Part shown: positions 48,849 through 60,328 of the stretch, piece after piece
Position numbering within the stretch: position 1 is the stretch's first letter
Layout: every line of letters starts with the position of its first letter
Assembly (NCBI RefSeq): GCF_000814005.1
Contig: NZ_JWLK01000004.1
Coordinates: 310,001 to 374,000, forward strand
DNA length: 64,000 nucleotides
DNA from: Ruegeria sp. ANG-S4
Lineage (GTDB): Bacteria > Pseudomonadota > Alphaproteobacteria > Rhodobacterales > Rhodobacteraceae
Direction of reading: 5' to 3'
Program-made: the position numbers and the translations under genes
Notes under the pieces: model-generated
Databases searched by the model: none
The model's input: the letters and a program-made list of their open reading frames with translations, nothing else
Told to the model about the DNA's origin: nothing

Positions 48849-48881
48849 CGCGGCTTGCCGCGACGGGGGCAGAGCCCCCTT
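48849..48881. terminator. Double hairpin between dapA and the soeC-type gene
   Basis: CGCGGC-TT-GCCGCG (48849-48862) and GGGGGC-AGA-GCCCCC (48865-48879) follow each other between two convergent genes. No long T-run is present on the plus strand (TTCACCGTTTT). Confidence 0.6.
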
Positions 48882-49768
48882 CACCGTTTTCCGTAGTATA
48901 GCCCCACCACATGTTCTGCCTGCGCGAAGAACAACCAGCGAGAGACCAAAATCCCCGCCAAATGCGACAGCACCGCAAACAGCGCAAAGATATGCTTTAC
49001 GACAACGCCGGTGACAGGGATCAAAATAAGCAGCAGCGGTAGTGCAAAAGCCAGCCCGAAGGAAATCACGCGCAATCTCTGCGCATGTTTACGGCCAACC
49101 ACGTGGACGAACTCGCGAAGCAGATAGTTTGTCCCGGTATGCGGTGGTTCGAAAGCGCGCACGGTTCCACGACTGCCCAATCCTGTGGCCGTAGCCAGGT
49201 TTGTACCGGATCCGTCCAGCGCTGCATCGCCCCTGGTCCAATAGGCAAGCTGAACAGCGCCGGCAACGATCAGCAGCCATGGGGCCAGTGCCTCCGCTCC
49301 GGACAACAATGCGCCGCCCGCAAGGCTGAAGGACAGAAACATCGCGGGCGTCAGGTTCATATTCCAGCGCGGGATCGTCTTCAGCTGGGTGTAAATCATC
49401 GATGTGGTGAACACTGTTGCAAGACTGAGCAGCGCACCGATCCATCCCAGCAGTGTCCAATGGCTGTGCAGGAAAACGGCGCCAAAGGCAAAGAGTCCCA
49501 TAGCGACCAGAGCCGCAACGGCGCAAACGCCTTCGCGGCTGAGCCAGCTGGATCTCCACTGGCTGAACGCCTTCCATGCACGTTCCGGATGTCCCAGATG
49601 GAAGGTCGAAGCAAGCAGCCCCCCGACCGCCAAACCAAAGGCGATCGCATAGAACACGAACGCAACGAGGCCCGTTACCGCCGGTTGGCCGAGGCCCAGG
49701 AAGAACAGCAATCCAAAGCCCAGACCCGAAAAGGTGGTGAAAATGATGACAGAAGGGGCCGGATGCAT
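48881..49768 (-). CDS. soeC: Membrane anchor subunit of sulfite dehydrogenase (SoeC/DmsC family)
   Basis: This 295-residue inner-membrane protein has eight predicted segments and belongs to the DmsC anchor family. It should pass electrons between the quinone pool and the iron-sulfur subunit. HLGHPERAWKAFSQWRSSW is a typical segment. Its ATG overlaps the stop of the iron-sulfur subunit by one base (TGATG). The name soeC depends on the operon, since DmsC-type anchors look alike. It is the last gene of the soe group. Confidence 0.85.
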   Translation of the reverse strand: MHPAPSVIIFTTFSGLGFGLLFFLGLGQPAVTGLVAFVFYAIAFGLAVGGLLASTFHLGHPERAWKAFSQWRSSWLSREGVCAVAALVAMGLFAFGAVFLHSHWTLLGWIGALLSLATVFTTSMIYTQLKTIPRWNMNLTPAMFLSFSLAGGALLSGAEALAPWLLIVAGAVQLAYWTRGDAALDGSGTNLATATGLGSRGTVRAFEPPHTGTNYLLREFVHVVGRKHAQRLRVISFGLAFALPLLLILIPVTGVVVKHIFALFAVLSHLAGILVSRWLFFAQAEHVVGLYYGKR

Positions 49769-50517
49769 CAGAGCTTCTCCAAGGTCTTATCGAGCCAGCC
49801 GAGAAACCCTTTGGGCTCGTCTGCGACAGGGGCAAGCAAAGGCGCCAGAATGTCGATCTGGTCCTCGACCTGATCTTTGGGACGCGGCGGCAGGTATTTG
49901 TTGACCGGCTTAGTGCCCATCTCGGGCATCAGGTCCATGCCGCCGCGCTCGGCAACCAGTTTGCTGACGTCGCTATCAGGATCGCCCAGATCACCAAAGT
50001 GGCGTGCGCCTGCGGGACAGGTGCGTACGCAGGACGGGACGCGATCCACCTCGGGCAGGTTTTCATTGTAGATGCGATCCACGCAAAGCGTGCATTTCTT
50101 CATCACGCCCTCGGCCATATCCATCTCGCGCGCGCCGTAGGGGCAGGACCACGCGCAGAGACCGCAACCGATGCAGTCGCTTTCGTTGACCAACACAATA
50201 CCGTCCTCGACCCGTTTATAGCTGGCCCCGGTGGGGCAAACGGTCACGCAGGGCGCGTCTTCGCAATGCAGGCAGGATTTGGGAAAGTGGATCAATTGGG
50301 CCGGACCGTCGTCTGGCTGAACTTCGTACGAGTGCACGCGGTTCAGGAATGTGCCTGACGGGTTCGCGCCATAGGCGTCCTGATCCGACAACGGCGCGCC
50401 GTAGTTTTCGGTATTCCAGCCTTTGCAGGAAATCACACAGGCGTGACAGCCCACGCACGTGTCCAGGTCGATCACCAGACCCATCTTGCGTTCGGTGGAT
50501 TGGGGGAGTTGGGTCAT
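49768..50517 (-). CDS. soeB: Iron-sulfur subunit of sulfite dehydrogenase (SoeB/DmsB family)
   Basis: This 249-residue protein carries four 4Fe-4S cluster motifs. The first is CVGCHACVISC (from C21), the second CLHCEDAPCVTVCP, the third CIGCGLCAWSCP and the fourth KKCTLC with CVRTC. There is no Tat signal. It relays electrons from SoeA to the membrane anchor. The ATG at 50517 overlaps the stop of soeA (ATGA). Confidence 0.88.
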   Translation of the reverse strand: MTQLPQSTERKMGLVIDLDTCVGCHACVISCKGWNTENYGAPLSDQDAYGANPSGTFLNRVHSYEVQPDDGPAQLIHFPKSCLHCEDAPCVTVCPTGASYKRVEDGIVLVNESDCIGCGLCAWSCPYGAREMDMAEGVMKKCTLCVDRIYNENLPEVDRVPSCVRTCPAGARHFGDLGDPDSDVSKLVAERGGMDLMPEMGTKPVNKYLPPRPKDQVEDQIDILAPLLAPVADEPKGFLGWLDKTLEKL

Positions 50518-53330
50518 TTGCCTACCTTCCACGCCAGGTCTTTGGGGCCGGTCCCGACCGGGGATTTGATCGGCTCAAACTCGGGCTGGCTTTCTGCATC
50601 TGATGGGGCCGCGGCCTTTTCAATTTTGACTTTGAGGTCGAACCAGGCGGCCTGGCCGGTAATCGGGTCCGAATTTGCCCAGCGCATTCCATCGCCCTTC
50701 GAGGGCAGCAATTCGTGAATCAGATGGTTCAGCAAAAAGCCTTTGGTCGCTTCCGGTGCGTCCTCTTGCAACGCCCAGGCGCCTTTGCGTTTGCCGATTG
50801 CGTTCCATGTCCAGACGGTGTTTTCGTTCAGCGCTGCCATCTCCATGACGGGCACGGTGATCTCGCCATGTGGCGAGGTGACCTTGGCCCAGTCGCCGTC
50901 CTGCAATCCGTGCTCGCGCATTAGCTTTGTGGGCACGTAAAGCGGATTGCGCCCGTGCAACTGGCGCAGCCAAGCGTTCTGGGTGCCCCAACTGTGGTAC
51001 ATTGCCATCGGGCGTTGCGTCAGGGCGTTAACGGTGAAGCCTTCGTTGCCTTGTTGGTCGGTTTCATACCAGATTGGCAGGGGGTCCATCGTTTCCTTGA
51101 GGCGCTGTCTCAGGTGATCGGGCGGTTGGCGGTCGCCATGGCCCTCGGCAGCCAACTGGAACCGGCGCATCGGTTCGGAATAGAGCTGGAACAGGTACGG
51201 CTGTGGTGAGTCGTAAAGACCCATGCCAACGGCCCAGTCCTGATAGGCGGTATTCCAAGGTTTGTAGTAGTCCGCGCCTTCCGGAATATGCGCAACAAAG
51301 AACCCGCCGTTTTCGATGTATTGATCCAATTGGTTCGGATTGACCTCGCCACGCCCGACTTTTTCCCCGTTGCCCCGAAATCCGGCAAGGGGGCCGATGC
51401 CCGGCTTGCGCTCGTGATTGACAATGTAGTCTGCGTAATCCTTCCACTTGGGGTTGCCGTCTTCGTTGGTGAAACCGGGAAGGTTCATGCGGTTGGCGAG
51501 TTCAATGAGAACCGACTGAAATCCGCGGACATCCCGGTCAGGCTCCACCACCGGCCAGCGGATCGCATCTGCGGCGGCGTCGGCCTCGCAGATCGGGCGG
51601 TCGAGTAACGAGATACAGTCGTGACGTTCCAGATAGGTGGTATCGGGCAGGATCAGATCGGCATAGGCGACCATTTCCGACGAATAGGCATCCGAGTAGA
51701 TGATCCTTGGGATGACGTATTTTCCGTCCTCGGTCTTAGCGGACAGCATCTCCATCACACCCTTGGTGTTCATGGATGAATTCCACGACATGTTCGCCAT
51801 ATACATGAACAGCGTGTCGATCTTGTAGGGATCGCCAGCGACTGCGTTCGAGATCACCATATGCATCAGCCCATGGGCAGACATCGGGTTTTCCCATGTA
51901 AACGCTTTGTCGATGCGCTGCGGTGTGCCGCAATCGTCCAGCAACAAGTCATCCGGTCCACGCGGGAAGCCCAGATGCGGCCCGTTCAGCGACCGCCCGG
52001 GCCGGCGATCGCCGTGCGGTGTCGGGTGCGCCTCGACCGGCTTGGGGTAGGGGGGCTTGAAGCGAAAGCCGCCCGGAACCTCGACCGTACCCAGAAGTAT
52101 CTGCAGCACGTGCAAGGACCGACATGTCTGGAATCCGTTCGCGTGCGCGGAAATCCCGCGCATGGCGTGGAAGCTGACAGGGCGGCCAGTCATTTTGGCG
52201 TGTGTCTCACCCCGGAAATCGGTCCATTCGTGATCCAGCTCGATGGCTTCTTCGAAGGCGACGCGGGCAATTTCCGCTGCGATGGCGCGGATGCGTTTTG
52301 CGGATATGCCACAGCGGTCGGCTACGGCTTCGGGCGCATGATCGTCCGAGAGGTACTTCTCGGCCATCAGGTGAAAGACGGGGCGATGCGTAACGCCGTC
52401 TTTTTCATAGGTGGCCGAAAGATCCGGGCGCACGCCGGGTTTGTCAAAGGCAGTGGGCGCGCCCGTCACCCGGTCGATGACCAGCGGCTTGCCGTCCGTA
52501 TCACGCAGGAACAGACCCTTTTCCGGTCCTTCAGCGGCGTTTACCAGAACGGGTGCGTTGGTGTAGCGGCTGAGATAGTCGAGGTCGATCTTCCCCGCCT
52601 TCATCAGAACATGGATTAGCGACAGGATGAACAGGCCATCGGTGCCGGGTGTGATGCCGACCCAATCATCTGCGACAGCGTTGTATCCCGAGCGGATCGG
52701 GTTCACGCCGATCACCCGTGCGCCGCGTGCCTTGATCTTGCCGATACCCATTTTGATTGGGTTGCTGTCGTGATCCTCGGCTACGCCAAACAGCATGAAC
52801 AACTTGGTGTGTTCCCAGTCCGGTTGGCCGAACTCCCAAAATGCGCCACCCATCGTGTAGATGCCACCCGCTGCCATGTTGACGGAGCAGAATCCGCCAT
52901 GGGCTGCGTAATTCGGAGTGCCGAAATTCTGGGCCCAGAAGCTGGTGAAGCTCTGGCTTTGATCGCGACCGGTAAAGAATGCCAGTTTTTGCGGCGCTGT
53001 CTCGTGCAATTCGTTCAACCAGCCGACGGCGGTGCTGATCGCCTCGTCCCATTCGATCTCGCGGAACTCGCCCGAGCCGCGCGGGCCAACACGACGCAAC
53101 GGTTTGCGCAAGCGCGACGGCGCGTTGACCTGCATTATTCCTGCGGACCCCTTGGCGCAAAGAACACCTTTGTTGACAGGATGATCCCGGTTTCCTTCGA
53201 TGTAAGCGACCTTGCCGTCTTTCATATGCACGTTGATGCCGCACCGGCAGGCGCACATGTAGCAGGTCGTCTTGCGGACCTCGTCCGAGACCTTCGGCGA
53301 GGTCTCGATCTGGGGTTGCTGGAATGTCAT
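50514..53330 (-). CDS. soeA: Molybdopterin catalytic subunit of sulfite dehydrogenase (SoeA)
   Basis: This 938-residue molybdopterin oxidoreductase has a 4Fe-4S site at the N-terminus (C23-x2-C26-x3-C30, then C58 in KGVLCAKG) and the bis-MGD domains after it (FFTGRDQSQSFTSFWAQNFG is a typical segment). There is no Tat signal, consistent with cytoplasmic SoeABC and unlike periplasmic DmsA. SoeABC oxidises sulfite to sulfate and is used in roseobacters when sulfonates release sulfite. The downstream order xsc-pta in the same strand direction supports this. Confidence 0.87.
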   Translation of the reverse strand: MTFQQPQIETSPKVSDEVRKTTCYMCACRCGINVHMKDGKVAYIEGNRDHPVNKGVLCAKGSAGIMQVNAPSRLRKPLRRVGPRGSGEFREIEWDEAISTAVGWLNELHETAPQKLAFFTGRDQSQSFTSFWAQNFGTPNYAAHGGFCSVNMAAGGIYTMGGAFWEFGQPDWEHTKLFMLFGVAEDHDSNPIKMGIGKIKARGARVIGVNPIRSGYNAVADDWVGITPGTDGLFILSLIHVLMKAGKIDLDYLSRYTNAPVLVNAAEGPEKGLFLRDTDGKPLVIDRVTGAPTAFDKPGVRPDLSATYEKDGVTHRPVFHLMAEKYLSDDHAPEAVADRCGISAKRIRAIAAEIARVAFEEAIELDHEWTDFRGETHAKMTGRPVSFHAMRGISAHANGFQTCRSLHVLQILLGTVEVPGGFRFKPPYPKPVEAHPTPHGDRRPGRSLNGPHLGFPRGPDDLLLDDCGTPQRIDKAFTWENPMSAHGLMHMVISNAVAGDPYKIDTLFMYMANMSWNSSMNTKGVMEMLSAKTEDGKYVIPRIIYSDAYSSEMVAYADLILPDTTYLERHDCISLLDRPICEADAAADAIRWPVVEPDRDVRGFQSVLIELANRMNLPGFTNEDGNPKWKDYADYIVNHERKPGIGPLAGFRGNGEKVGRGEVNPNQLDQYIENGGFFVAHIPEGADYYKPWNTAYQDWAVGMGLYDSPQPYLFQLYSEPMRRFQLAAEGHGDRQPPDHLRQRLKETMDPLPIWYETDQQGNEGFTVNALTQRPMAMYHSWGTQNAWLRQLHGRNPLYVPTKLMREHGLQDGDWAKVTSPHGEITVPVMEMAALNENTVWTWNAIGKRKGAWALQEDAPEATKGFLLNHLIHELLPSKGDGMRWANSDPITGQAAWFDLKVKIEKAAAPSDAESQPEFEPIKSPVGTGPKDLAWKVGK

Positions 53331-53354: not shown

Positions 53355-54386
53355 TCAGGTCAAGATATGTATTCCCGCGAGGATCAGACCTGCGATAAAC
53401 AGCGTTTCAACGACGATCAGGGCAATCGCGGCCCCGCCGACAGACAGCACCTGTTTCAGGTTCGTCTTCATTCCCACCGCGGCGATGGCCGTCAGCAAAA
53501 GCCAGCGCGATACCTGTCCAAGAAATTCACTAATCTCCAGCGGAATCAAGCCCGCAGAATTCAAGCCGGCCAGAATGATGAACGCGATCACAAAACCCGG
53601 AAGGATCGGTGGGCGTTTCCCGTCTGCGGGCAATTCGGCGTAGGTCCGGATCACGATCGATGCAATCAGAACAATCGGGGCCAGCATCGCCACGCGCATC
53701 AGCTTGACCAAAGTGGCCGTTTCGCCAGCAGCGTCCGAGATCGAAAAACCGGCACCGACGACCTGTGCAACATCGTGAATTGTTCCGCCAAGGAAGACCC
53801 CGGCCTCAAGCGGCGATAACCCAAGCCTGTTGACGATGATCGGATAGAGGATCATCGCGATTGTGGACAGTACAGTGACGCCCAAAACAGTGAAAATCAG
53901 CCGCTCTTCCGAGCGTTCGTCGCGCGGAAGAATGGCGCTGATCGCCATAGCCGCCGACGCCCCGCAAATGGCAACCGAACCAGAAGTGAGCAAGGCAAAG
54001 CGCCACTTGTGGCCAAACAAGGGTGCAACCAGAAACCCGAACAGGATTGTGGCGATAAGGCCGCCGATCACCAGTGCGATCAATTGCGGGCCAAGTCCGA
54101 TCATCAGAACCATCGAAACGCGAACGCCCAGCAGGGCGACGCCCACCCTTAGCAATGTGCGGGATGTAAAGGCGATGCCCGCGACGGCCTTGCCTTCTTC
54201 GCTGAGAAATCCAAGCGCGATACCCAGCAACAAGGCCAACAGCATCGCGGGGGTGGCGTAGTGGTCCGCCAGGAACTGCGCGGTCACTGCGACGATGGCG
54301 GAAACCGCGATGCCGGGAAACAGCGTTCGGGCGGTTCGAGCGGCTTCCAAGCCCATTGGATTTCGCGATTTCGGTGTTGCCAGCAT
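53355..54386 (-). CDS. YeiH-family putative sulfate exporter
   Basis: This 343-residue inner-membrane protein has about ten segments and belongs to the YeiH/UPF0324 (putative sulfate exporter) family. LLRVGVALLGVRVS, SVAICGASAAMAISA and GGTIHDVAQVVGAG are family signatures. Between pta and soeA it most likely exports sulfate or sulfite from sulfonate breakdown. I chose the ATG at 54386. An upstream ATG at 54431 would add 15 hydrophilic residues. Confidence 0.88.
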   Translation of the reverse strand: MLATPKSRNPMGLEAARTARTLFPGIAVSAIVAVTAQFLADHYATPAMLLALLLGIALGFLSEEGKAVAGIAFTSRTLLRVGVALLGVRVSMVLMIGLGPQLIALVIGGLIATILFGFLVAPLFGHKWRFALLTSGSVAICGASAAMAISAILPRDERSEERLIFTVLGVTVLSTIAMILYPIIVNRLGLSPLEAGVFLGGTIHDVAQVVGAGFSISDAAGETATLVKLMRVAMLAPIVLIASIVIRTYAELPADGKRPPILPGFVIAFIILAGLNSAGLIPLEISEFLGQVSRWLLLTAIAAVGMKTNLKQVLSVGGAAIALIVVETLFIAGLILAGIHILT

Positions 54387-54484
54387 TTGCTTGACGCTCT
54401 TTCTATCGTGTTGGCCGAACCTGTCCGGCATATGCGGTTCGGGCCCAAGAACAACGCCTCGCCCGGGTGGGTGCGGTTGCCAGA

Positions 54485-55492
54485 TTATGACTGGCTGTGT
54501 TGCGCCTGCACCGCCGTGACTGCGATCATGTGCAAGACGTCCTCGGCCGAGCAGCCGCGGGATAAATCATTGGCCGGTTTCGCCAGGCCCTGCAGGATCG
54601 GACCGATTGCCTCTGCTCCGCCAATGCGTTGGGCGATCTTGTAGCCAAGGTTGCCCGCATCGAGATTTGGAAACACAAACACATTTGCTTCTCCCCGCAG
54701 AGGAGAGTTCTTGGCTTTCTTGTCGGCAACCTCGGGGACGAATGCGGCGTCGAACTGAAGTTCTCCGTCGATCAGCAAATCCGGCTCGGCTGACTTGGCG
54801 ATCTGCGTGGCCCGGCTGACCTTTGTGACCTTCGGATGGCTGGCGCTGCCACTGGTCGAAAAAGACAGCATCGCAACCCGAGGTGTCTGGGACGTCAGCG
54901 TCTTGAACGATGCGGCAGATGCACGGGCGATTTCCGCCAGTTCCTGCTCGTCCGGATCGACGACCAGACCGCAATCGGCAAAGATATGCGCGCCTTTCAC
55001 CGTATGGTGATCGCGGAAATAGAACATCAGGAAAAAGCTGGAAACCATCGCCGCATCGGGTGCCTTACCGATGATCTGCAGCGCAGCCCGAACGGTGTCC
55101 GAGGTTGTTTCGACCGCGCCGCCTACGGTGCCATCTGCCAGGCCTGTATGTACCAGCATGGCGGCATAGGTCAGGCGATTCCGGATTTGCTGCGCGGCCT
55201 GATCACCGGTCATGCCCTTGTGCTTGCGCAACTCGTAAAGCTCGGTTGCAAACCTTTCGGCGTGTGGCGAGTCATTTGGGTCGTGGATTTCGATGCCATC
55301 AACGGTTTCAGCATCATGTTCTGCCAAAAGTGACCGAACCTTTGCTGCATCGCCTACAAGAATGACGCGCGCAACACCTTCCTTACGCGCCTTCAGCGCA
55401 CCTTCGACAATCCTTGGGTCATCGCCCTCGGCAAGGGCGATGATCTTGTCGGGGCTGCTGGCAGCCCCGAGAATTGTGCGCAATGGCGTCAC
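54485..55492 (-). CDS. pta: Phosphate acetyltransferase
   Basis: This 335-residue enzyme converts acetyl-phosphate and CoA to acetyl-CoA. SFSTSGSASHPKVTKV, LQFDAAFVPEVADKKAKNSPL (key words LQFDAA and KNSPL) and FPNLDAGNLGYKIAQR are family signatures. It is the short single-domain form found in sulfonate clusters. It lies 4 bp after xsc, whose product is acetyl-phosphate, so the pair is one unit. Confidence 0.95.
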   Translation of the reverse strand: MTPLRTILGAASSPDKIIALAEGDDPRIVEGALKARKEGVARVILVGDAAKVRSLLAEHDAETVDGIEIHDPNDSPHAERFATELYELRKHKGMTGDQAAQQIRNRLTYAAMLVHTGLADGTVGGAVETTSDTVRAALQIIGKAPDAAMVSSFFLMFYFRDHHTVKGAHIFADCGLVVDPDEQELAEIARASAASFKTLTSQTPRVAMLSFSTSGSASHPKVTKVSRATQIAKSAEPDLLIDGELQFDAAFVPEVADKKAKNSPLRGEANVFVFPNLDAGNLGYKIAQRIGGAEAIGPILQGLAKPANDLSRGCSAEDVLHMIAVTAVQAQHSQS

Positions 55493-55496
55493 GCGT

Positions 55497-57275
55497 TTAC
55501 GTCCCGGCCTGCGCTGTCATGTCGTCCGACGAAATCCCGGCTACAGCAACGGGCTTCTTCATTGCGTCGCGGCGGAAGGGTTCCCCGAGCTCCTGATTGA
55601 TCATTGCCTCGATCAGGGTGGTTATACCGTTTTTCTGATCTTCAATGGCCTGGTTCAGGGCGGCGGTCAGTTCGTCTTGCGTGCGTGCAACGACACCTTT
55701 CAATCCGCAGGCTTGCGCGATACCGGCATAAGACACTTGCGTGTCCAACTCGGTGCCGACGAAGTTGTCATCGAACCAAAGGGTCGAATTGCGCTTTTCC
55801 GCGCCCCATTGATAATTCCGGAAAACGATCTGGGTCACGGCGGGCCATTCCGAGCGACCGATTGCAGTCAATTCGTTCACCGCGATGCCGAATGCGCCGT
55901 CACCGGCGAAACCGACAACCGGCACGTCGGGTTGCCCGATTTTCGCGCCAACAATTGCCGGCAGGCCGTAACCGCACGGACCAAAAAGGCCGGGGGCCAG
56001 GTATTTGCGGCCTTCGTCGAAATCAGGATAGGCGTTGCCGATGGCACAGTTGTTGCCGATGTCGGACGAGATGATCGCCTCGCGTGGGAGAGCCTGCTGA
56101 ATTGCACGCCACGCCATGCGCGGGCTCATCCAGTCAGGTTTGGCCGCGCGGGCACGTTCGTTCCAAGTCGTGCCCGGATCGTCCTGTTCGTGGGTGAGCG
56201 AGGTCAGTTCCTGAGCCCAAGCCGATTTCTTCTGCGCGATATTGGCTTTGCGTTCGGCGCGGTTGGTGTTTCCAGCTTCGTCTGACAGCTGCCGCAGAAT
56301 GCCGTTTGCAACCTTTGCCGCATCACCAACGATGCCCACGGTGACCTTTTTCGTCAGGCCAATGCGATCTGGGTTTATGTCCACCTGAATGACTGTCGCG
56401 TTCTCGGGCCAATAACTCATGCCGTAGCCCGGCAGGGTCGAGAACGGGTTCAGGCGGGTGCCCAGTGCCAGCACGACGTCGGCGTCTTTGATCAGCTCCA
56501 TTCCGGCTTTCGAGCCGTTATAGCCAAGCGGACCGGCAAACAGGGGATGGTTGCCGGGGAACGCATCATTGTGCTGGTAGCCAACGCAGACAGGAGCATC
56601 CAAGCGTTCGGCAAGCGCGATCGACGCGTCGATTCCGCCTTCGGACAGAACCACGCCAGCACCGTTGAGGATGACCGGGTTCTTGGCATTCGACAGGATT
56701 TCAGCCGCTTTGGCGACCGAGTTTTCGCCGCCCGGGCTGCGCTCGAACTCAACCGGATCAGGGATTTCGATGTCGACGACCTGAGTCCAGAAGTCGCGCG
56801 GGATGTTCAACTGTGCCGGACCGGACAGACGTTTGGCTTGGCTGATCACACGGGTCAGGACCTCGGCCACACGGGTCGGATCGCGCACTTCCTCCTGATA
56901 GGCGACCATATCTTCGAACAGTTTCATCTGTTCGACTTCCTGAAAGCCGCCCTGACCAATCGTCTTGTTTGCCGCCTGCGGCGTTACCAACAGCAGCGGG
57001 GTGTGGTTCCAGTATGCCGTCTTCACAGCGGTCACAAAGTTGGTGATGCCGGGGCCGTTTTGCGCAATCATCATCGACATCTTGCCGGTGGCGCGGGTGT
57101 AGCCGTCCGCCATCATGCCGGCGCTGCCTTCGTGCGCGCAGTCCCAGAACATGATCCCTGCCTTTGGGAACAGATCCGAGATCGGCATCATCGCCGAACC
57201 GATGATTCCAAACGCATGTTCAATACCGTGCTTTTGCAGAACCTTAACAAAGGCCTCTTCGGTCGTCATTTTCAT
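55497..57275 (-). CDS. xsc: Sulfoacetaldehyde acetyltransferase
   Basis: This 592-residue thiamine-diphosphate enzyme converts sulfoacetaldehyde and phosphate to acetyl-phosphate and sulfite. The N-terminus MTTEEAFVKVLQKHGIEHAFG, the catalytic glutamate in DCAHEGSAGMMADGYTRA, and the ThDP-binding GFAGDGAFGIAVNELTAIG through FRNYQWGAEK are seen. The long N-terminal match and the pta neighbour make Xsc certain among acetolactate-synthase-like enzymes. It has a candidate TauR operator upstream. Confidence 0.96.
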   Translation of the reverse strand: MKMTTEEAFVKVLQKHGIEHAFGIIGSAMMPISDLFPKAGIMFWDCAHEGSAGMMADGYTRATGKMSMMIAQNGPGITNFVTAVKTAYWNHTPLLLVTPQAANKTIGQGGFQEVEQMKLFEDMVAYQEEVRDPTRVAEVLTRVISQAKRLSGPAQLNIPRDFWTQVVDIEIPDPVEFERSPGGENSVAKAAEILSNAKNPVILNGAGVVLSEGGIDASIALAERLDAPVCVGYQHNDAFPGNHPLFAGPLGYNGSKAGMELIKDADVVLALGTRLNPFSTLPGYGMSYWPENATVIQVDINPDRIGLTKKVTVGIVGDAAKVANGILRQLSDEAGNTNRAERKANIAQKKSAWAQELTSLTHEQDDPGTTWNERARAAKPDWMSPRMAWRAIQQALPREAIISSDIGNNCAIGNAYPDFDEGRKYLAPGLFGPCGYGLPAIVGAKIGQPDVPVVGFAGDGAFGIAVNELTAIGRSEWPAVTQIVFRNYQWGAEKRNSTLWFDDNFVGTELDTQVSYAGIAQACGLKGVVARTQDELTAALNQAIEDQKNGITTLIEAMINQELGEPFRRDAMKKPVAVAGISSDDMTAQAGT

Positions 57276-57360
57276 CTGATTGATCTCCGCGCAAGTAAGG
57301 ACTGGCCGGGCATGCCGCCCTGCCGTTGCACTTGGTTTTGGAGCATGGCGCGCGGCGGCG

Positions 57361-57393
57361 TTAGGGCCAGACAGAGAGGCGAAATAAGTCCAG
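57361..57393 (-). promoter_or_regulatory. Candidate TauR operator of xsc (two direct repeats)
   Basis: Read on the minus strand, CTGGACTTAT (57393-57384) and CTGGCCCTAA (57370-57361) are direct repeats 23 bases apart, toward xsc. They match 9 of 10 positions each of the CTGGACYTAA TauR site that I recall from Rhodobacter. They end 86 bases before the xsc start. Confidence 0.65.
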
Positions 57394-57400
57394 CGCCGAG

Positions 57401-58861
57401 TCAGTAGTCGCCGATCGCGTTCGCGATCAGTTCCACGCCGGCGGGAATCTGTTCGGCCGCGATCGAGGAGTAGCCAAGGCGATAGAAATTCTGCGGTTGG
57501 TCCGGCTCTGAGAAAAAGGATGCGCCGGGTTCGATATGCACGCTTTGATCTTGTAGCGTTCTTGCTAGTTTCGTTGTGTCGACATGTTCAGGTGCAGACA
57601 TCCAAAGGGAAGACCCGCCGATGATACCGCGCCCGGCGACGGTCAGTCCGAACTGTTCTATTGCCGTATCCAAAGCCTGTCGACGCTCGGCCAGTGTCTT
57701 GGACATGCGTCGGATCTGGGCATCGTAGTGCCCAAGCGAAAGAAAGTAGGCCGCCGTGCGTTGCATATGGCCGGGGGGATGCCGAAGAACCAGCGAACGC
57801 AACGCCCGCGCCTCGCGAATGAAGGGTTCTGACCCGACCATGTAACCCAGACGTAGACCGGGGAACAAAGACTTTGAGAAACTGCCGACGTAGATCACCC
57901 GCCCATCCTGGTCCATGGATTTCAACGCGGGCGAAGGCGCATCCATAAAGGCCATTTCGAACTCATAATCATCTTCAACGACCATCGCATCCAGCGCGCG
58001 GGCGCGATCCAGCAGCTGACGTCGGCGATCCACCGGCATGGTTGCTGTTGTGGGGCTTTGGTGGCTGGGTGTGGTGAATATGACGTCGGTGTTGTCTGGC
58101 AACAGCTCTGGTGGCAGGCCATCGCGGTCGACGCCCAATGGGGTAACGTTGCAATCCCAGTAGTTTAGCAATGTCCGCAACGCGTAATAACAGGGGTCTT
58201 CGATCACCGCATTGCGGTTGTGGGTCAGCAGAATACGCGACGCCAGCCACAGCGCGTTCTGTGCGCCCATGGTGATCAGGATCTCTTCTGGACGCGCGGC
58301 GATGCCCCGGCGCGGCAGGCTGTGACGCGCAATAAACTCGATCAGCAGGGGGTCGTCCTGATCGACGTAGTCAGACGTCAGTGTGTCAAAGTCCTTGTGC
58401 CCCAATGCCCGCACCGCGCAAAGGCGCCAGTTGGCATGATCGAACAGGGTTCTGTCGGCCTGCCCATAGATGAACGGGTACCGGTAGTTTTGCCAATCAC
58501 TGGGTTTGTGCAGAAAGTCACCACCCGAAAACCGCCTGGCCAGCGCGGCATCCCAATCAACGGTTTCGGTTCCGCGCTGCAACGGAGTGTATTTTGGCGG
58601 CACCGGCGCGTTCTGAGACACGTAGTATCCCGAGCGATCCTTGGCGGTAAGGTAATCGTTGGCCAACAATTCGGTATAGGCCAGCGTGACCGTGATCCGA
58701 CTGACACCCAAATGCGCGGCAAGGTTTCTGGAGGATGGCAGCTTCTCACCCACATGAAACCGACCCGACAGAATACCTTCGGCAATCATCTGTTGAATGC
58801 GGGCCTGCAAGGTGCCCTGGCCGTTGGGCTCAAGAAAGAATGTGTCGACTGAGATGCTCAT
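57401..58861 (-). CDS. tauR: MocR-type regulator TauR
   Basis: This 486-residue regulator has a GntR winged helix at residues 10-80 (LQARIQQMIAEGILSGRFHV) and a fold-type I aminotransferase-like domain (residues 120-486). The PLP lysine is K330 in VGSFSKSLFPGLRLG. TauR activates taurine catabolic genes with taurine and PLP. It is upstream of xsc in the same direction. It also lies divergent from an ArsR-permease operon, with tandem TauR-like repeats in between. Confidence 0.9.
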   Translation of the reverse strand: MSISVDTFFLEPNGQGTLQARIQQMIAEGILSGRFHVGEKLPSSRNLAAHLGVSRITVTLAYTELLANDYLTAKDRSGYYVSQNAPVPPKYTPLQRGTETVDWDAALARRFSGGDFLHKPSDWQNYRYPFIYGQADRTLFDHANWRLCAVRALGHKDFDTLTSDYVDQDDPLLIEFIARHSLPRRGIAARPEEILITMGAQNALWLASRILLTHNRNAVIEDPCYYALRTLLNYWDCNVTPLGVDRDGLPPELLPDNTDVIFTTPSHQSPTTATMPVDRRRQLLDRARALDAMVVEDDYEFEMAFMDAPSPALKSMDQDGRVIYVGSFSKSLFPGLRLGYMVGSEPFIREARALRSLVLRHPPGHMQRTAAYFLSLGHYDAQIRRMSKTLAERRQALDTAIEQFGLTVAGRGIIGGSSLWMSAPEHVDTTKLARTLQDQSVHIEPGASFFSEPDQPQNFYRLGYSSIAAEQIPAGVELIANAIGDY

Positions 58862-58875
58862 GAACAGGTTATAGG

Positions 58876-58907
58876 CTGGACTTACAGTGGCTGCAATCTG
58901 GACATAA
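58876..58907 (+). promoter_or_regulatory. Candidate TauR operator between tauR and arsR (two direct repeats)
   Basis: CTGGACTTAC (58876-58885) and CTGGACATAA (58898-58907) are direct repeats 22 bases apart on the plus strand, pointing toward the ArsR-permease operon. Each matches the CTGGACYTAA consensus at 9 of 10 positions. They end 89 bases before the ArsR start and lie 14 bases from the tauR start. Confidence 0.7.
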
Positions 58908-58936: not shown

Positions 58937-58980
58937 TTGACGTGTCTTGCTGATTGAACTAAATAACTAGAAAATTAGTT
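58937..58980 (+). promoter_or_regulatory. Promoter and ArsR operator of the regulator-permease operon
   Basis: TTGACG (58937-58942) is a good -35 element, with a weak TAAATA (58960-58965) after 17 bases. AACTA-N6-TAGTT (58965-58980) is an inverted repeat, with a third AACTA at 58957-58961. It covers the -10 and start region, as expected for repression by the ArsR-type protein. Confidence 0.55.
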
Positions 58981-58995
58981 TAATGGAGAAATCGA

Positions 58996-59304
58996 ATGTG
59001 GGAAACAGCTGCTGCAGGGTTTTCTGCCATGGGGTCCGAAGCCCGGTTGAAAGTTCTGAGAACTCTGGTCCGTGCCGGACAGGCTGGATTGACCGTGGGC
59101 GAAATTCAGGACCGCACCGGAATCGCTCCGTCGACATTGGCCCATCATCTGCGGTTTCTGGCCGCGGGCGGGGTTGTCGAGCAAGAGAAAGTTGGGCGCA
59201 GCACCATCAATCGCGCCTGTTATGATGAGCTTAGAAATCTCGCGCAGTTTATCCTTGCCGAATGTTGCGCTGATGAATTTGGAAAGGCCGCGAACGATGG
59301 CTGA
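58996..59304 (+). CDS. ArsR-family transcriptional repressor
   Basis: This 102-residue winged-helix protein (GSEARLKVLRTLVRAGQAG, then IQDRTGIAPSTLAHHLRFL) has the usual ArsR length. A cysteine pair lies near the C-terminus (ILAECCADEFG), while the classic ELCVCDL metal motif in helix 3 is absent (APSTLAHHL instead). Metalloid or thiol sensing may therefore use the C-terminal cysteines. It overlaps the permease gene by 8 bp. Its AT-rich operator lies just upstream. Confidence 0.9.
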   Translation: MWETAAAGFSAMGSEARLKVLRTLVRAGQAGLTVGEIQDRTGIAPSTLAHHLRFLAAGGVVEQEKVGRSTINRACYDELRNLAQFILAECCADEFGKAANDG

Positions 59305-60328
59305 GCTGACGCAAAACCCGAAAGTGTCGCCCAAGGCGCTTGTCGAAATGATCAAGACGCCGTGGGCGTTGATTTTGGCGCTACTTTTGGCGGTCGCCAT
59401 TCTCGACCCGGGAAACTGGATCGCGGTTGTCACTTTTGCCGGTAAGGCATTGGCGCATACCGGGCAGTATATCCTGTTTGCCGTGCTGCTGTTATCATAC
59501 CTCAAAGCGACCGGGGCCGAGGTCATGGTCGCACGCGCGTTTGAAGGACGCGAGACCCGGATGATTTTTCTGGCTGCCGTGTTTGGTGGTCTGGCTCCAT
59601 TCTGTTCTTGCGAGGTGATACCGTTTATCGCCGGGTTGTTGGCCCTGGGTGCGCCATTGTCGGCGGTCATGGCCTTCTGGCTCAGCTCGCCGCTGATCGA
59701 CCCGCCGACCTTGCTGATCACGGCCGCCGCGCTGGGTTGGCCCTTTGCAATCGGCAAAGCCGTGGCTGCGGTTGCGCTTGGTTTGTTCGGCGGGTTTGCC
59801 GTGCGCTTTTTGATGCGCGGGGGTGCTTTTGCGCAGCCGCTGCGGGAATATAAACCAACTGGCTGCTGTGGTTGCGGCCCCAAGATGGATGACAAACCGG
59901 TCTGGAAGTTCTGGCAAGAACCCGAGCGCCGCATGCGTTTCCGCTCCGAGTTTGTGCACAACGGTCTGTTCCTGCTCAAGTGGCTGGCGTTGGCCTATGT
60001 GCTCGAAGCGCTCTTGGTCAATTACGTACCGGCAGACTTGATTGCGCGTGTCGTTGGTGGCGAGGGGATCGTTCCCATCGTGGTTGCCGCGCTGGTCGGT
60101 ATGCCCGCCTACCTGAATTCGTACGTTGCACCGCCGCTGTTGGCCGGGCTGATGGAGCAGGGGATGACAGCGGGCGCGGCGATGGCATTCATGGTTGCTG
60201 GCGCCGTCAGCTCGATCCCCGCGATGGCGGCTGTTTGGTCGCTGGTTAAACCAAGGGTGTTTGCCACATACCTTGGGTTGGGTATCAGCGGTGCGATTGT
60301 GGCCGGTATTCTGTTTCAGATGCTTTAA
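59297..60328 (+). CDS. COG0701-type permease (ArsP/YraQ-like)
   Basis: This 343-residue inner-membrane protein has about eight to ten segments. The COG0701 signatures are GGLAPFCSCEVIPFIAGLLA in the first half and GMPAYLNSYVAPPLLAGLM in the second. Between the halves lies a cytoplasmic or periplasmic loop with TGCCGCGPKMDD. Family members include ArsP (trivalent organoarsenical efflux) and related permeases. Given the neighbours, a thiol, sulfite or sulfonate-related substrate is also possible. The start overlaps arsR by 8 bp. Confidence 0.88.
   Translation: MAELTQNPKVSPKALVEMIKTPWALILALLLAVAILDPGNWIAVVTFAGKALAHTGQYILFAVLLLSYLKATGAEVMVARAFEGRETRMIFLAAVFGGLAPFCSCEVIPFIAGLLALGAPLSAVMAFWLSSPLIDPPTLLITAAALGWPFAIGKAVAAVALGLFGGFAVRFLMRGGAFAQPLREYKPTGCCGCGPKMDDKPVWKFWQEPERRMRFRSEFVHNGLFLLKWLALAYVLEALLVNYVPADLIARVVGGEGIVPIVVAALVGMPAYLNSYVAPPLLAGLMEQGMTAGAAMAFMVAGAVSSIPAMAAVWSLVKPRVFATYLGLGISGAIVAGILFQML

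Follow-up and report, generated by a model that had tools for sequence, protein, structure and literature searches.

Two kinds of TauR-type operator in a Ruegeria-like taurine locus: probable activation of xsc and autorepression of tauR, with the divergent arsR-permease operon probably outside TauR control

Two pairs of direct repeats of the TauR type lie on either side of tauR in a member of a Ruegeria-like genus (54 genomes). One points towards xsc and the other towards an operon composed of arsR and a permease gene. Which genes do they control? A sequence-only reading of the window (the complete stretch of 64,000 nucleotides under analysis) had assigned each pair to the gene that it faces and proposed that TauR may activate the arsR-permease operon as it does xsc. 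We have compared the positions, periods and conservation of the pairs in related genomes, together with their dependence on gene order. The results make it highly probable that there are two kinds of TauR operator here, one activating at xsc and one autorepressing at tauR, and that the arsR-permease operon is not a TauR target. The earlier reading was very probably a correct sighting with a wrong gene assignment.

The TauR protein of R. capsulatus is reportedly the subject of a 2008 study by Wiethaus et al. Its consensus site is CTGGACYTAA, and the TauR regulon described by Suvorova and Rodionov includes xsc, pta, tpa, tauZ, bisC, dmsC and hybA (PMC5320631); we take bisC, dmsC and hybA to be soe-like genes. 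According to the same source, MocR regulators are often auto-repressors and the distance between repeats can vary slightly inside a regulog (PMC5320631). With self-repression so common among MocR regulators, an operator at tauR itself is to be expected for a regulator of this type. The Rhodobacterales TauR regulon and the system described here have in common the CTGGACYTAA direct repeats and the members xsc, pta, tpa and tauZ, but the main text of the published account does not contain the word 'ArsR' and describes the regulon without the gene-specific split between periods of 22 and 23 bases that is seen here (PMC5320631).

The genes and predicted control elements are listed in Table 1. The minus strand carries, in this order, tauR, xsc, pta, a gene of the YeiH/TauZ type and three soe-like ones. 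An overlapping PF03773 permease gene follows arsR on the plus strand. The TauR protein combines the GntR winged helix-turn-helix with a class I/II aminotransferase domain, as expected for the MocR subfamily, its gene adjoins xsc, and CTGGACYTAA direct repeats precede its targets. Relatives (E<=1e-60) occur in 185 of the 294 other genomes of the Rhodobacteraceae draw, and the sample used below consists of the best-scoring 90 of 186 genomes' loci with a tauR match, window included. Among these 90, an xsc start with upstream DNA is present in 68, and a tpa-like gene is the nearest assigned upstream gene in 19. For the soeABC-like genes, no NCBIfam model exceeded its cut-off among the matches listed. 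The best NCBIfam match of the permease is the SO_0444 Cu/Zn efflux model (103.9 bits, below the cut-off of 300); the nearest named NCBIfam models of both the permease and the ArsR regulator are metal-related and score below cut-off, and a sequence search at E 0.01 returned no solved relative.

The TauR protein exceeds the NCBIfam cut-off for PdxR, its best NCBIfam match (346.4 bits against 320), and no TauR model is present among the 25 of 63 NCBIfam matches listed for it. Automatic annotation may therefore call it a pyridoxine regulator, despite its TauR-type gene context and operators.

Table 1. Genes and predicted control elements of the taurine locus (positions in the window)
Feature	Position	Strand	Details
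soeABC-like sulfite dehydrogenase genes	48881..53330 (50514-53330, 49768-50532, 48881-49768)	-	Pfam domains
YeiH/TauZ-like putative sulfate exporter	53355..54431	-	PF03601; TIGR00698 136 bits, below cut-off 232.6
pta, phosphate acetyltransferase, downstream of xsc	54485..55492	-	Profile matches
xsc, sulfoacetaldehyde acetyltransferase	55497..57275	-	NCBIfam TIGR03457 922.7 bits, cut-off 676.4
Putative -10 region of xsc (CAAAAC)	57335..57340	-	20 bases past operator end; TAnnnW at +20 in 26/53 xsc operators
Predicted TauR operator of xsc, period 23	57361..57393	-	CTGGACTTAT (57393-57384), 13 bases, CTGGCCCTAA (57370-57361)
tauR, MocR-type regulator	57401..58861	-	GntR wHTH and aminotransferase domain (Pfam PF00392, PF00155)
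Putative -10 of tauR (TATAAC)	58868..58873	-	17-base spacer; ends six bases before ATG; T 93%, A 97%, sixth base T 85% (60 aligned loci with the pair)
Predicted TauR operator of tauR itself, period 22	58876..58907	+	CTGGACTTAC (58876-58885), 12 bases, CTGGACATAA (58898-58907)
Putative -35 of tauR (TTGCAG)	58891..58896	-	Between the two half-sites; TTGC at 100, 98, 88, 80% (60 aligned Rhodobacteraceae loci with the pair)
Putative -35 of arsR (TTGACG)	58937..58942	+	TTGAY-(16-19)-TAnnnW in 47/51 Ruegeria-like intergenics
Putative -10 of arsR (TAAATA)	58960..58965	+	17-base spacer; sequence and aligned intergenics
Putative ArsR operator, inverted repeat AACTAGAAAATTAGTT	58965..58980	+	Consensus of 75 aligned intergenics
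arsR, ArsR/SmtB-type regulator	58996..59304	+	PF12840, PF01022; NF033788 54.3 bits, cut-off 55
ArsP_1-type permease	59297..60328	+	PF03773 141.6 bits

Both pairs exist at the places and on the strands first described, with periods of 23 and 22 bases, and their reading as TauR-type operators is supported by the R. capsulatus consensus CTGGACYTAA (PMC5320631). The distances originally given, 86 bases to xsc and 89 to arsR, are each one more than the gap: 85 bases separate the first pair from the xsc ATG at 57275 and 88 separate the second from the arsR ATG at 58996. What had been overlooked is the start of tauR. From its ATG (58861, minus strand) to the beginning of the 22-base pair is 15 bases, which places this pair inside the tauR promoter region. 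The genome search proposed at the outset bears out the rarity of such pairs: a strict pattern (CTGGNCNTAN{12,14}CTGGNCNTA) has two matches in the 4,534,555-base genome, precisely the two pairs of the window, and the reversed control pattern has none in the whole genome.

A third, weaker pair in the same genome (period 23, one mismatch) lies about 100 bases upstream of a Tpa-like aminotransferase gene (contig C18, 4582-6104), which is divergent from a gene that, judged by eye, resembles an acyl-CoA synthetase gene. It was retained because it stands before tpa and has counterparts in relatives. A further 23-base site (C2:20654, two mismatches, between genes that by eye are thiD- and dnaJ-like) was treated as a chance match because, at that stringency, the reversed control gave 14 matches against three real ones.

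To which gene does the 22-base pair belong? Within the tauR sample, a 22-base pair with at most 4 mismatches in 18 is present at an offset of 13-17 bases from tauR in 58/90 loci, and no pair with any other period from 17 to 28 occurs at that offset. With 500 scrambled motifs the mean was 0.13 and the largest count 22 of 90. The other 32 loci have no pair at that stringency and place, and some carry one that is weaker or nearer the start; offsets of 7-10 are seen for a 23-spaced pair in three tauR loci, and offsets of 4-9 for a 22-spaced pair in five.

Upstream genes were assigned by tblastn with the proteins of the loci themselves, and gaps were measured up to where the tblastn match ends. The 22-base pair is present in all 13 loci where arsR is divergent from tauR, in 3 of the 6 with another divergent gene, in 15 of the 28 (of 90) without an assigned upstream gene, and in 27 of the 43 with an upstream gene oriented like tauR (21/35 with a gap of at most 300 bases; 15/20 with a gap of at most 100). 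In 15 short gaps (44-88 bases), the pair extends to 45-47 bases from tauR, in some cases as far as the point where the upstream gene ends. With such short gaps and no divergent gene, tauR is the sole gene that the pair can precede.

The distances agree with this. We examined 75 distinct tauR-arsR intergenic regions, limited to 80-200 bases, seeking the pair within 25 bases of tauR (wider scans agree). The pair lies 14-16 bases from tauR (sd 0.8) and 70-136 bases from arsR (sd 12.4). For the 51 most Ruegeria-like intergenic regions, the standard deviation of the offset is 0.4 with respect to tauR and 6.0 with respect to arsR.

The arsR sample contains 109 distinct loci, 93 of them with tauR divergent in the locus; 30 permease loci were taken from the 54 genus genomes. 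Where arsR is close to tauR (under about 370 bases), the pair is found in 82/83 loci; one of the 83 (L192) falls below the pair threshold, and the best-scoring pair of L081 is off register. The repeats are therefore not absent from relatives with the same gene order, an outcome proposed earlier as a test, but this test cannot separate tauR from arsR, and loci with other gene orders do. Where arsR is apart from tauR, the pair is present in 0/26 loci within the 600 bases searched before arsR (0/16 without tauR in the fetched stretch and 0/10 with tauR at least 800 bases away). The genomes behind 12 of the 16 stretches without tauR each contain a tauR relative (in G215 at no better than 1e-101), and G110 has its tauR about 1.6 kb away from the arsR locus. 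The pair is thus locked to tauR and is not kept when the operon is away from it, and the proposal that it drives the arsR-permease operon is not supported. Most likely, judging from its position and conservation, it tunes tauR and not the permease operon.

Three loci of this series have unusual arrangements. L115 and L119 have a second aminotransferase gene divergent from tauR, and the intervening pair is 23-spaced and lies 10 and 7 bases from tauR, respectively, in place of the usual period of 22 and distance of 15; it may be one operator serving both directions. In L016, a gene that by eye resembles that of a sulfide:quinone oxidoreductase is divergent to tauR, with arsR-permease beyond it.

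The sequence of the tauR promoter region is consistent with this assignment. The putative promoter letters (TTGC-17-TAnnnT) are almost as conserved as the half-sites among 60 aligned Rhodobacteraceae loci, which were chosen for having the pair; in the window the sixth base of the -10 element is C, unlike the T in 85% of these loci. The operator would overlap the core promoter of tauR itself, as expected for an autoregulatory MocR operator. There is no space for a ribosome-binding site between the -10 element and the ATG, so that a leaderless mRNA, with +1 on or beside the A of the ATG (58861), is likely from the sequence. In the aligned members the conserved TAnnnT ends some six bases short of the ATG, so that tauR has the same leaderless appearance (58859-58873), and this would explain the fixed distance from operator to ATG.

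We had also asked whether GCAAT, which precedes the second half-site, marks only the -35 element of tauR. This idea is weakened because the tpa operators of the same genome and of two genus relatives carry GCAAT too, and it may be part of the half-site.

The xsc pair can be assigned to xsc, as originally proposed. In an unselected set (the 68 xsc upstream regions from the 90 tauR loci), 53 have a 23-base pair, three a 22-base pair and 12 none. TAnnnW occurs 20 bases past the operator end in about half of the 53, and no other offset between 10 and 34 has it in more than 4 of 53. This layout would fit an activator contacting the polymerase at -35, and the operator very probably turns on xsc, the taurine-breakdown gene. 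The conserved sequence CCAAAACC is found in the 23 genus xsc sequences.

The period also goes with the gene across Rhodobacteraceae, and the equal geometry once ascribed to the two operators must therefore be rejected. The 122 distinct xsc upstream regions have 108 pairs (100 spaced at 23, seven at 22 and one at 25), the 57 tpa upstream regions have 48 (42 at 23, five at 22 and one at 24), and a second aminotransferase gene has three, all at 23; part of the xsc set and two of the tpa loci had been fetched by the pair pattern. With 145 of the 159 pairs at 23, 12 at 22, one at 24 and one at 25, the 23-base rule is not absolute. In the genus, 31 xsc loci gave 23 distinct usable ones (included in the 108-pair set), all 23-spaced; the presence of a pair in 23/23 is circular, since most were fetched by a period-22-or-23 pattern, and only the period and flanks inform. 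Fisher's test of tauR (58:0, period 22 against 23) against xsc (3:53) gives p = 2e-29, a guide only, given the kinship of the genomes and the restriction of the tauR count to period 22. The half-sites differ as well: the seventh base of the promoter-side half-site is C in 53/53 xsc pairs, and at tauR it is T in 41/58 and C in 6 (the xsc logo was built from 46 of the 53 loci). There is, then, a testable regularity in Rhodobacteraceae: 22-base pairs at tauR and mostly 23-base pairs at the activated taurine genes. We claim it for Rhodobacteraceae only, because the same consensus was not found at class-level tauR relatives (0/25 with a pair at tauR, at most three mismatches; loci L272-L296); one of these, L293, carries between its tauR and xsc genes a 23-spaced pair that faces xsc.

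It is tempting to read the spacing as a sign, with TauR acting as an activator on 23-base pairs and as a locked repressor of its own gene on 22-base pairs. We regard this as doubtful. If true, a single base (about 34 degrees of helix turn between half-sites) would separate two outcomes in one regulon.

The arsR-permease operon appears to have control elements of its own. Its putative promoter lies 59-60 bases before the arsR ATG in 45/47 intergenic regions, and an AACTAG-N-CTAGTT palindrome covers the arsR start region; the fixed pattern finds it in 23/26 arsR loci away from tauR. Together, palindrome and promoter would fit ordinary ArsR self-control. The distance from the TauR operator end to the putative arsR -35 element is 6-43 bases (mean 29, sd 6.5; 47 intergenics), although the two shortest may be false picks. 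In 31/47 genus intergenic regions it is 28-31 bases, and in the window 29. This clustering can be explained by shared ancestry; room remains for an effect on arsR. Conservation past the operator towards arsR is low (0.25, 0.36, 0.09 and 0.12 bits per base in successive tens; 51 sequences), whereas past the xsc operator end it is high (0.96, 1.24, 1.45 and 0.77; 23 genus sequences), a difference of which we estimate that sample size explains only about 0.05.

These observations are best accommodated as follows. At xsc, TauR on the 23-base pair would touch the promoter at its -35 region, the -10 being fixed 20 bases further on, and, with taurine, would turn on xsc-pta and the genes behind. In front of tauR, one half-site of the 22-base pair would lie just upstream of the -35 element and the other between -35 and -10. 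TauR bound there would block polymerase and limit its own synthesis. The arsR-permease operon, as a divergent neighbour, would have a separate promoter and, most likely, an ArsR palindrome of its own.

Could the 22-base operator work in both directions, TauR repressing tauR and, with taurine, activating arsR-permease, which would help to export a product of sulfonate breakdown? The pair does point to arsR at an xsc-like distance (88 against 85 bases), it is present in nearly all loci with arsR close to tauR (82/83), two divergent aminotransferase genes have a pair on their side, and MocR regulators are frequently divergent from genes that they activate (PMC5320631). However, the loci with arsR apart from tauR all lack it, and the period is 22, not the 23 usual at activated genes. 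A varying 6 to 43 bases separate it from the putative arsR -35, which differs from a fixed distance to the promoter, arsR has a putative -35/-10 and a palindrome of its own, and the nearest named model of the permease is a metal efflux model, below cut-off. We therefore consider such a dual role improbable. The suggested connection between the permease and sulfonate use finds no support, and the main support for a tie between this ArsP-type permease and sulfonates is removed.

A weaker effect, in which TauR at 58876-58907 would slightly lower arsR transcription by crowding and have no sulfonate role there, is more improbable still: the operator end is only 29 bases from the putative arsR -35 in the window, but this gap leaves the -35 free and the spacing is not strictly kept. 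That TauR does not bind this pair, which would then be a relic or a fortuitous match, is hardly credible, given only two strict pairs in the genome against zero for the reversed pattern and one fixed place in 58/90 Rhodobacteraceae loci (best 90 of 186), also kept in the genus.

With separate operators, probably activating at xsc and repressing at tauR, the system can be compared with known ones. GabR of Bacillus subtilis likewise binds and represses its own promoter at a direct-repeat operator (PMC5320631), as TauR would here. In contrast to autorepressors of the GabR type, the operator is kept here also without a divergent target gene, and each activated gene has an operator of its own, in most cases of a different period. 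The plus-strand genes resemble ArsR/SmtB efflux permease operons in having a small ArsR-type gene that overlaps the permease gene (PF03773) and a palindrome near the arsR start region, but they match no named NCBIfam model (SO_0444 Cu/Zn efflux nearest) above its cut-off. More generally, to find out which of two divergent genes owns an operator, one can determine where it is kept when gene order changes.

In R. pomeroyi, xsc (SPO3561) also lies between pta (SPO3560) and tauR (SPO3562), and soeC, soeB (SPO3558) and soeA (SPO3559) adjoin pta. The arsR and permease genes would presumably be SPO3563 and SPO3564, tags that we guessed from gene order; neither is mentioned in the literature searched for published arsR-permease expression. 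A table for R. pomeroyi, limited to chosen genes, gives 27.2 for xsc and 19.3 for pta (PMC9870897).

The AACTAG...CTAGTT palindrome marks the ArsR-permease operon in the compared loci and could be used for finding its regulon.
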